A DNA stretch of 64,000 nt from Fibrobacter sp. (lineage in GTDB: Bacteria; Fibrobacterota; Fibrobacteria; Fibrobacterales; Fibrobacteraceae). This document shows positions 5,105 to 7,412 of the stretch, one piece after another. Position numbers and translations under genes: made by a program. Location of the stretch: positions 1-64,000 of the forward strand of contig NZ_JAFZKX010000043.1 in the NCBI RefSeq assembly GCF_017551775.1. The letters run 5' to 3'. A model generated the notes under the pieces. The model did no database searches. It had not been told where the DNA came from and saw nothing but the letters and a program-made list of their open reading frames with translations. How positions within the stretch are numbered: position 1 is the first letter of the stretch; every line of letters begins with the position of its first letter.

Positions 5105-5860
5105 TTATGCGCCCGTGAGTTCCTTGGCCTTCGCCTCGATTTCGGCAATGGCTTTTTTTCTACCTTCGGCAGAATTCTCGTTCGCGAGCACGATGTTTAC
5201 GAATACAGATCCCGCCACCACGGCGTACACGTGCTTGCACAGCACCTTGGACTGTTCACCGTTACGGATGCCGAAGCCGCCGAGCACCTTCGCGCCGCCC
5301 TTGGCGACGGTATCAATGAAGTCGAGGGTGGCCTGGTCGATGACGGTTTCGCTTCCGGTAGTACCCGCGCGGAGAGCCGCGTAGATGTACTTGAAGCCCT
5401 TGGACGCCATCGTCTCGAGGCGTTCCTTCGTCATGGACGGGGCCGCCACGGGAATGTTCTCGAGGCCATGCTTTTTGCAGGCTTCGGTGAGGCCTTCGTC
5501 GCAGTCGAACGGAAGGTCGGGAATGATGCAGGCGGACACGCCCGCGTCCTTGCACATCTTGACGAAGTTCTCGACGCCCGGAGTGAAGGCGAGCGAGCCG
5601 TAGGTCATGATGTAGATGGGCGTTTCGGGGTGGCGTTCGTGAATCTTCTTCACGACTTCGAGCCCCTGCTTGGTGGAGTAACCCTTCTCGAGGGCGACGG
5701 TAGATGCCGTCTGGATGGCAGGACCGTCGGCGCTCGGGTCGCTGAACGCGAGCTGGATTTCGAGGATGGAGGCACCGCCCTTCACGAGGGCGTCTGCGAT
5801 GGCGACGGACGTTTCCGCATCAGGGAAACCCGCGATAAGATGTGACATGAGGTTGATCAT
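5105..5860 (-). CDS. trpA: Tryptophan synthase alpha chain
   Basis: Splits indole-3-glycerol phosphate into indole and glyceraldehyde 3-phosphate and passes indole to TrpB. 251 residues. The catalytic Glu is in ILEIQLAFSDP and the catalytic Asp in SADGP; the phosphate-binding loops GFGIRNG and VAGSVFV are present. The start at 5860 follows trpB by 9 bases and has an AAGGG ribosome site. The N terminus is about 15 residues shorter than in E. coli TrpA, so the first helix is missing or very short, and the usual GIPFSDP is QLAFSDP. Otherwise the chain looks functional. It is transcribed from the attenuated promoter ahead of trpB. Confidence 0.95.
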   Translation of the reverse strand: MINLMSHLIAGFPDAETSVAIADALVKGGASILEIQLAFSDPSADGPAIQTASTVALEKGYSTKQGLEVVKKIHERHPETPIYIMTYGSLAFTPGVENFVKMCKDAGVSACIIPDLPFDCDEGLTEACKKHGLENIPVAAPSMTKERLETMASKGFKYIYAALRAGTTGSETVIDQATLDFIDTVAKGGAKVLGGFGIRNGEQSKVLCKHVYAVVAGSVFVNIVLANENSAEGRKKAIAEIEAKAKELTGA

Positions 5861-5869
5861 TTTAAACCC

Positions 5870-7141
5870 TTACTTATTCATAATTTCTGCGTCGTGAATG
5901 TCTTCGTTGTTCTCGAGGCGCTTGAGTTCGGCCTTCAGGAATTCCTTCCATTTTTCGGGGCGGAACACCGGACTCGTGATGAAGATGTCCTTGTCGCCGC
6001 GGCCGCTCATGTTGATGACGAGCGCCTTGTCCTTCGGCAGTTCCTTCGCGATTTTCATGGCGGCGGCACCGGCGTGGGCGCTTTCGAGAGCGAAGAGGAT
6101 GCCTTCGTTACGGGCGAAGAACTTCACGGCCTCGAGGGCTTCCTTGTCGAGGATGGCGGTGAATTCCACGCGGCCAGATTCCCCGAGGGCGGCGAGTTGC
6201 GGACCGATGCCCATGTAGTCGAGGCCGGCAGAAATGGAGCGCGTCGGCATGGACTGTCCGTCTTCGTCGATGAGGAAGCGGCTCTTGTAACCCTGCACGA
6301 TTCCTTCGCGGCTCGCGTTGCCCGTCATGCGGGCGGCGTTCTCGCCGACGTTCGGGCCGATACCACCGGCTTCAGCGCCGATGAGACGCACGTTCTTGTC
6401 TTCGATGAACGGGGTGAACACGCCGATGGAGTTGCTTCCGCCACCGACGCAGGCGACCACGGCCGCGATGTCGATATTGCGCTCGGCAGCCTGGCGCTTG
6501 ACTTCTTCGCCGATGACCGACTGGAACGTACGCACGATATCCGGGAACGGGGCCGGGCCGAGAGCGGAACCGAGCACGTAGTGGGTGTTCTTGAAGTTGG
6601 TGGCCCAGTCGCGCATGGCCTCGTTCACGGCGTCCTTCAGGGTGCGGCTGCCGCTAGTGACCGGGACGACCTTCGCACCGTACATTTCCATGGTCGCCAC
6701 GTTCGGCTGCTGGCGCCGAACGTCGACTTCGCCCATGTACACCACGCATTCAAGCCCGAGCTTGGCGCAGGCGGCGGCGGTGGCGAGCCCGTGCTGGCCG
6801 GCACCCGTCTCCGCGATGATGCGGGTCTTGCCCATCTTCTTGGCCAAGAGGCACTGGCCAATGGCGTTGTTGATCTTGTGGGCGCCCGTGTTGGCGAGGC
6901 CTTCGAGCTTGATGTAAATCTGCGCGCCACCCAAGAGTTCGGTAGCCGTCGGGGCGAAGTACAGCGGGGTCTCGCGCCCGATGTAATCGCGCTGGATAAT
7001 ACGGAGCTCCTCGAGGAATTCCGGATCGTGGATGTACTTGTTGAAGGCTGCCTCGAGGTCGTCGAGCGGGCGACGGATGATTTCGGCAACGTACTTGCCG
7101 CCGAACTTGTCGAAGAAACCGTTGTTTGATGTTGTGCTCAT
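5870..7141 (-). CDS. trpB: Tryptophan synthase beta chain
   Basis: PLP enzyme that joins indole and serine to give tryptophan, in an alpha2-beta2 complex with TrpA. 423 residues. The PLP lysine is in NTGAHKINN, the catalytic Glu in ETGAGQHG, the phosphate-binding loop is GGGSN, and the C-terminal SGRGDKD is intact. Against E. coli TrpB it has a C-terminal extension of roughly 20 residues and EGLANTG in place of EDLxHTG. No other trp genes are adjacent, so the pathway is split. Expression should follow charged tRNA-Trp through the leader at 7172-7333. No clear Shine-Dalgarno precedes the ATG. Confidence 0.96.
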   Translation of the reverse strand: MSTTSNNGFFDKFGGKYVAEIIRRPLDDLEAAFNKYIHDPEFLEELRIIQRDYIGRETPLYFAPTATELLGGAQIYIKLEGLANTGAHKINNAIGQCLLAKKMGKTRIIAETGAGQHGLATAAACAKLGLECVVYMGEVDVRRQQPNVATMEMYGAKVVPVTSGSRTLKDAVNEAMRDWATNFKNTHYVLGSALGPAPFPDIVRTFQSVIGEEVKRQAAERNIDIAAVVACVGGGSNSIGVFTPFIEDKNVRLIGAEAGGIGPNVGENAARMTGNASREGIVQGYKSRFLIDEDGQSMPTRSISAGLDYMGIGPQLAALGESGRVEFTAILDKEALEAVKFFARNEGILFALESAHAGAAAMKIAKELPKDKALVINMSGRGDKDIFITSPVFRPEKWKEFLKAELKRLENNEDIHDAEIMNK

Positions 7142-7171
7142 ATTCGCGCTCTGGGTTAGGATTAAAGGGTA

Positions 7172-7257
7172 AAAAATTAAGGCTTCCGGTGAGTCCGAAA
7201 GCCTTTTACAAACGTTTTGATGAAATCGGCAAAACCGGACTCTATGTTCTAGAGCCC
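7172..7257 (-). promoter_or_regulatory. trp operon transcription attenuator
   Basis: Read on the minus strand, four pairing segments lie in the classical order. Segment 1 GGGCTCTA (7250-7257) pairs with segment 2 TAGAGTCC (7237-7244). Segment 2 as GAGTCCG (7236-7242), plus GCC (7228-7230), pairs with segment 3 GGC...CGGACTC (7191-7203) as the antiterminator. Segment 3 also pairs with segment 4: AAGGCTTtCGG (7195-7205) with CCGgAAGCCTT (7179-7189) makes the terminator, followed by AATTTTTTA. The Trp codons overlap segment 1, so a ribosome stalled for Trp would free segment 2 and let trpB be read. Mutually exclusive pairings are visible by eye; the mechanism is inferred from the E. coli trp paradigm. 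Confidence 0.9.
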
Positions 7258-7298
7258 CACCACCAACGGTTGAAACGGATTGCTGTATTCATCATCAT
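7242..7298 (-). CDS. trpL: trp leader peptide (three consecutive Trp codons)
   Basis: An 18-codon frame reads MMMNTAIRFNRWWWGSRT then TAG. Three adjacent TGG codons sit just before the attenuator stems, as expected for a sensor of charged tRNA-Trp. Three ATG codons in a row open the frame. There is no Shine-Dalgarno: the TATATT box at 7305-7310 ends 6 bases before the first ATG, so the predicted transcript start falls on or beside its A. The peptide is therefore probably translated from a leaderless mRNA. The stop codon lies in segment 2 of the attenuator. Confidence 0.88.
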   Translation of the reverse strand: MMMNTAIRFNRWWWGSRT

Positions 7299-7304
7299 GC
7301 CCAA

Positions 7305-7333
7305 AATATAGGAACACCGGTCTGTCCTGGCAA
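7305..7333 (-). promoter_or_regulatory. Promoter of the trp leader
   Basis: On the minus strand TTGCCA (7328-7333) and TATATT (7305-7310) are separated by exactly 17 bases, a good sigma-70-type promoter. The expected +1 is about 7298, the A of the first leader ATG. The batA promoter has the same form, TTGCCT-17-TATATT. Confidence 0.75.
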
Positions 7334-7353: not shown

Positions 7354-7384
7354 AAAAAAAATGCCCCGCACTTGCGTGCGGAGC
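7354..7384 (-). terminator. Rho-independent terminator of the esterase gene
   Basis: GTGCGG pairs with CCGCAC around a 4-base loop, extended by GC pairs beyond one mismatch (7363-7384). On the minus strand it is followed by eight T (7354-7361). It lies 29 bases past the esterase stop and upstream of the trp promoter, so it insulates trp from read-through. Confidence 0.85.
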
Positions 7385-7412
7385 AGAACAAACGAGGAGG
7401 TACTGCTAATAA

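Follow-up and report, generated by a model that had tools for sequence, protein, structure and literature searches.

A probable ribosome-mediated attenuator with a putatively leaderless leader peptide ahead of trpBA in Fibrobacter

The window analysed here, a 64,000-nt stretch of a contig from Fibrobacter sp., carries on its minus strand the tryptophan synthase genes trpB and trpA and, ahead of trpB (7333-7171), a promoter, a short reading frame and a set of alternative RNA helices:

5105..5860, minus strand: trpA, tryptophan synthase alpha (TIGR00262, 193.7 bits)
5870..7141, minus strand: trpB, tryptophan synthase beta, first gene under the proposed control (TIGR00263, 547 bits)
7171..7176, minus strand: T run of the terminator (sequence and terminator scan)
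7179..7189, minus strand: segment 4 (CCGGAAGCCUU), 3' arm of the intrinsic terminator (terminator scan and folding)
7191..7205, minus strand: segment 3 (AAGGCUUUCGGACUC) (terminator scan and folding)
7218..7232, minus strand: 3' side of helix P0, just after segment 2 (MFE structure)
7235..7244, minus strand: segment 2 (UAGAGUCCGG), partner of segment 1 or 3 (per-leader folding)
7242..7298, minus strand: leader peptide frame MMMNTAIRFNRWWWGSRT, 18 codons plus TAG, its ATG the probable transcript start
7250..7257, minus strand: segment 1 (GGGCUCUA), partner of segment 2 (per-leader folding)
7257..7265, minus strand: Trp control codons TGG TGG TGG (sequence; WWW or WW in all relatives)
7280..7294, minus strand: 5' side of P0, leader nt 5-19, early codons (MFE structure)
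7305..7310, minus strand: -10 element TATATT (sequence and promoter scan; consensus of relatives at this place CCTAWATT)
7328..7333, minus strand: -35 element TTGCCA (sequence and promoter scan)
7362..7385, minus strand: terminator of the upstream esterase-like gene, separating that gene from the trp promoter (terminator scan)

A preliminary description of the locus had listed a TTGCCA-17-TATATT promoter ahead of trpB, an 18-codon frame with three consecutive TGG codons, and mutually exclusive 1:2, 2:3 and 3:4 stems with a terminator and T run. All of these were recovered. The promoter, read directly, was also found by the promoter scan (10/12 matches) with a 17-nt spacer between 7333-7328 and 7310-7305; the frame and its codons were read directly on the minus strand; and sequence, scans and folding agreed on the stems and the terminator. 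Segment 3 is divided between two partners, 7198-7191 pairing with segment 2 as antiterminator and 7205-7195 pairing with segment 4, and the terminator scan retrieved the leader terminator at 7205-7179 with 11 bp. The six bases TTGGGC, followed by ATGATGATG, alone separate the -10 element from the ATG at 7298, and no Shine-Dalgarno sequence precedes the leader ATG.

The trpB leader folded with an energy of -43.2 kcal/mol (z = -3.6 against shuffles, none of which equalled it). In constrained folding, a ribosome on any of the Trp codons made the 2:3 antiterminator the best structure at -16.4 kcal/mol, as computed on the RNA preceding the last terminator arm. Moving the ribosome to the stop codon made 2:3 impossible and let the 3:4 terminator form, and with no ribosome 1:2 formed together with 3:4. 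These modelled states follow the classical logic of attenuation, including the predicted termination of an untranslated leader.

We compared this leader with its counterparts in the family, where TrpB was found in 103 of 111 genomes (weaker TrpB-like matches counted); the named relatives whose TrpB is 98-99% identical to that of the window are Fibrobacter. Comparison of upstream regions confirmed that two or three consecutive Trp codons are kept in about 70 Fibrobacteraceae trpB leaders. The preliminary description had named missing TGG codons in relatives as a ground for refuting it, and this comparison did not refute it. The commonest peptide is M(K/M)MN..IRFNRWWWGS.., with MKMINVLCENFDGRWWRGL as the variant of one subclade and MKNVKNNNRWWRRA, MQNVKSINRWWWRT or MQNTRNTNCWWRRA in a sister genus. 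The offset from ATG to Trp codons takes values of 27, 33, 36, 39, 42 and 48 nt, all in frame. Apart from the Trp codons and an IRFN-R-WWW-GS core, the residues of the peptide are free to vary, and the 9 synonymous and 90 non-synonymous codon differences from the window give no support to protein-level selection over its full length. As the helices are broken up in the MAFFT alignment, a first RNA model (R1, 14 bp) was mostly sequence-driven, and helices were scored leader by leader instead. Scored in this way, the 1:2, 2:3 and 3:4 helices formed in 58/58 distinct trpB leaders, with mean energies of -11.3 (range -8.6 to -12.4), -16.3 and -18.1 kcal/mol, respectively. Covariation in the stems was also found: in the L112 subclade, segment 2 changes from GAGUCC to GAGUCU and segment 3 from GGACUC to AGACUC, a compensatory exchange of C-G for U-A that the terminator arm follows.

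A covariance model built from the trpB leaders was searched in the window's own genome and in the phylum. It located a second leader copy in the same genome, ahead of trpE (G000:C8), that encodes MVNATSTIFNRRWWRGL and has its own TTGCCA promoter 35 nt ahead of the ATG. The trpB and trpE pair recurs in relatives, and in some species trpCF too is preceded by a leader, the third of its kind, with the peptide MQIK(V/M)AS.AK...FANRWWWGS.G followed by a stop codon. The attenuator stands in each case ahead of Trp biosynthesis genes (trpB/trpA, trpE or trpCF), and Trp codons were present in every intact leader of the three operons. Most trpE leaders, unlike those of trpB, contain a C.A mismatch in both 1:2 and 2:3, a point against the attenuator reading. 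Across the phylum the model matched 86 of 168 genomes, in 6 of 41 genera; in genera with trpB directly after trpF the matches lie elsewhere, for example ahead of a trpE-like gene (L260). As a separate observation, the mismatched trpE segment 2 reads GAGCCCGG (G000:C8:724-590 and other trpE leaders).

The position of the promoter bears on how the leader peptide is translated. Counted from the first T of TTGCCA, the ATG lies 35-36 nt downstream in 68 trpB leaders and 37 nt in that of L005 (read by hand), counts that come from homologous loci, hence are not independent, and were obtained with search patterns favouring spacings of <=36 nt. The leader ATG itself lies 101 to 390 nt from trpB. Readable trpE and trpCF leaders have the same 35-36 nt spacing, and reading by hand gave 36 nt in another genus (L260) and 37 nt in another family of the order (L259). 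In a promoter of the sigma-70 type with a 17-nt spacer, this distance would place the transcription start on the A of the ATG. A pyrimidine-purine step is the usual site of transcription start, and of 54 distinct promoters 51 carry C or T directly ahead of the ATG. The transcript of the trpB leader thus very probably begins at its AUG, as judged from promoter geometry, and a leaderless start is well supported though not proven.

We also considered whether the same attenuator might have a 5' leader of 1-10 nt, or a second promoter upstream, and so not be strictly leaderless. The -10 element lies 6-7 nt, rarely 8, from the ATG, which would allow a start as much as ~4 nt further upstream, and the leader promoters often have G at -4 and -5; initiation at a G 2-4 bases upstream would give a 1-4-nt leader, functionally similar to a leaderless one but not strictly so. 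However, the pyrimidine followed by the A of the ATG in nearly all distinct promoters fits a start exactly at that A, a leader of such length would be too short for any Shine-Dalgarno sequence, and the terminator at 7385-7362 shuts the leader off from the gene before it. We therefore regard this variant as unlikely and retain a start at the AUG itself as the preferred reading.

Leaderless initiation would not be confined to this leader. In 800 kb of a congener (G061:C1:1-800000), where genes were called simply from their first ATG, we searched the 262 genes whose upstream space is free for a TAnnTT box with its end 6-8 nt ahead of the ATG. Such a box was present in 39 of them, compared with 7.8 +/- 2.7 in shuffles (maximum 18 in 1000). 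A Shine-Dalgarno sequence preceded 1 of these 39 genes as against 81 of the 223 others, and a pyrimidine occupied position -1 in 32 of the 39 (L168-L207). Fibrobacter thus appears, from these sequence statistics, to combine leaderless starts with Shine-Dalgarno ones, and a whole class of leaderless genes is predicted in the genus; the published surveys of leaderless genes that we consulted make no mention of Fibrobacter. The suggestion in the preliminary description that the sensor peptide is translated without a Shine-Dalgarno sequence accordingly gains support from the fixed spacing, the -1 pyrimidine, the absent Shine-Dalgarno sequence and this predicted class. TTGCCA was rejected as a general mark of leaderless genes, TTG standing at the right distance in 5 of the 39. 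A scan of the same 800 kb for the full design (a short codon-run frame with a -10 box 5-8 nt ahead of it and a terminator) gave the trpB leader as its only convincing case and none for other amino acids; the scan is insensitive, since it missed the known WW-type trpE leader.

A terminator and an antiterminator do not by themselves reveal the sensor, and a T-box, a TRAP-like Trp-binding protein, a riboswitch or another device could in principle take the place of a translating ribosome. Against this stands the conservation of Trp codons and an in-frame AUG at three paralogous operons, and no Rfam family, Trp_leader and T-box included, scored above its gathering threshold in the window. Sampled relatives likewise gave no relevant Rfam family (T-box, trp) up to E = 1, and inspection of the sequence revealed no array of GAG/UAG repeats. 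We consider a sensor of this kind very improbable. That promoter-like hexamers, a hairpin and a short frame came together by chance is untenable: single pattern matches of this kind do arise in shuffles, but the architecture is conserved in ~70 genomes and again at trpE and trpCF.

The locus is, with high probability, a ribosome-mediated transcription attenuator of trpBA whose RNA would begin on the first ATG or very close to it and whose antitermination would depend on stalling at Trp codons. Its description as textbook Trp attenuation is borne out by the conserved codons, the covarying exclusive helices and the three paralogous operons; the sequence, codons, exclusive helices and promoter spacing are observed, and the Trp response, the exact start site and the role of P0 are predicted. 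In the proposed mechanism, RNA polymerase would start at the A of the first ATG or a few bases from it, and a ribosome would load on the 5'-terminal AUG without a Shine-Dalgarno sequence and translate the 18-codon peptide. With ample charged tRNA-Trp it would reach the stop codon, which sits in segment 2, so that the 3:4 terminator could form. Under Trp shortage it would stall at one of the three Trp codons and cover segment 1, leaving segment 2 to pair with segment 3 and allowing read-through into trpBA. Where no ribosome loads, 1:2, closed off by the 5' helix P0, would hold segment 2 away from segment 3 and transcription would terminate. The predicted RNA switch would thus turn on the Trp-making genes of a gut bacterium only under Trp shortage.

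P0, formed by 7294-7280 with 7232-7218, lies beyond the textbook stems. Its pairing is GAUGAA:UUCAUC in most trpB leaders, GAUUAAC:GUUGAUC in L112, AACGUAAA:UUUGCGUU in the sister genus and CAGAUUAAA:UUUAAUCUG at trpCF. Native pairs had a mean energy of -12.2 kcal/mol compared with -8.4 kcal/mol for mixed, cross-clade pairs, and 0 of 20000 permutations of 13 representatives were as stable as the native set, which argues from covariation that P0 is retained in every clade. Because P0 encloses 1:2 and begins right behind the AUG, it can strengthen 1:2 and close the leaderless start, a role in the attenuator that is suggested by its position. More tentatively, and as a reading that we hold less likely than not, P0 may gate leaderless initiation at trpB, trpE and trpCF alike: with the start codon at the 5' end of the RNA, a ribosome would have to load before P0 closes ~80 nt later. 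If so, a late ribosome would meet a locked start site and the operon would be terminated, and the attenuator would read both the charging of Trp-tRNA and the supply of ribosomes competent for leaderless initiation.

The Trp attenuator of E. coli (Rfam Trp_leader) has in common with that of Fibrobacter the 1:2, 2:3, 3:4 logic and tandem Trp codons, although the Fibrobacter leader matched no Rfam model, this one included. The AUG of E. coli trpL follows a stretch of leader RNA and a Shine-Dalgarno sequence, and TrpR also controls the operon. Closer parallels are published. In Sinorhizobium meliloti the trpL / trpLE(G) system (rnTrpL, peTrpL) is likewise a Trp attenuator with a terminator, and its transcript has the start codon ATG of a 14-codon frame at its very 5' end (PMC7298713); it belongs to another phylum and controls trpE(G) rather than trpBA, trpE or trpCF, and no trans-acting role is known for the Fibrobacter leader. 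Streptomyces lividans trpL1 of trpE, supported by RNA-seq, encodes an 18-residue leaderless WWW peptide, MFAHSTRNWWWTAHPAAH, followed by a terminator (PMC8079986), and differs in being from Actinobacteria, preceding a single trpE gene and having an unrelated sequence. The leader frame of Corynebacterium glutamicum ilvBNC lies one nucleotide from the transcript start, and its hairpin H1 both covers the leaderless start and serves as antiantiterminator (PMC11857589), the role proposed here for P0 with 1:2; that system responds to branched-chain amino acids, and its three hairpins overlap differently. According to the account of Canestrari et al. 2020 given in PMC9031893, leaderless poly-Cys short ORFs of mycobacteria are described as attenuators; as reported there they share with Fibrobacter a short leaderless frame in which codons for the sensed amino acid follow one another, and differ in sensing cysteine and in acting on the translation of downstream genes. 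The link between Trp sensing and leaderless initiation proposed in the preliminary description is therefore upheld by comparison, whereas its implied novelty is not, having been preceded in S. meliloti and S. lividans. Our literature search found no paper on attenuation in Fibrobacter, and the case appears to be new at the level of the phylum, apparently the first attenuator described for Fibrobacterota; it would make this a third major lineage, besides Alphaproteobacteria and Actinobacteria, with leaderless translation as the sensor of an amino-acid switch. The multi-operon arrangement and the conserved 5' helix are features of Fibrobacter's own.

Several further observations were made among the relatives. 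Two trpB leaders, in L036/L141 (the same genome region) and L144, are odd: one has a GTG start and a terminator fused into the trpB frame, the other has neither -10 box nor start codon, and both represent deletions or assembly faults. TrpB proteins 81-83% identical to that of Fibrobacter occur in rumen Spirochaetaceae and horse-faeces Treponema bins (L038, L040); L038 has a Shine-Dalgarno sequence and a different leader without a Fibrobacter-type attenuator, which suggests gene transfer (or mis-binning) without the switch. At 26 loci outside the window, for example L138:430-600 (minus strand), L133, L007 and L012, a second RNA of ~130-145 nt with its own terminator and a strong TTGACA-17-TATATT promoter lies a short way upstream of the trpB attenuator. 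Its homology to the trp leader is seen from a model built on it (R2), which finds trpB leaders at ~1e-12 or better. ATA usually stands in place of the 5' ATG, this RNA has lost the Trp codons, and its structure is conserved but no peptide is; it is possibly a duplicate of the leader turned non-coding RNA. Some genomes have, between this RNA and the trpB leader, a gene of DHH/DHHA2 phosphoesterase type with what looks like a lipoprotein signal (L268:463-1728, L269:190-1515), so that the extra RNA may be the leader of that gene.
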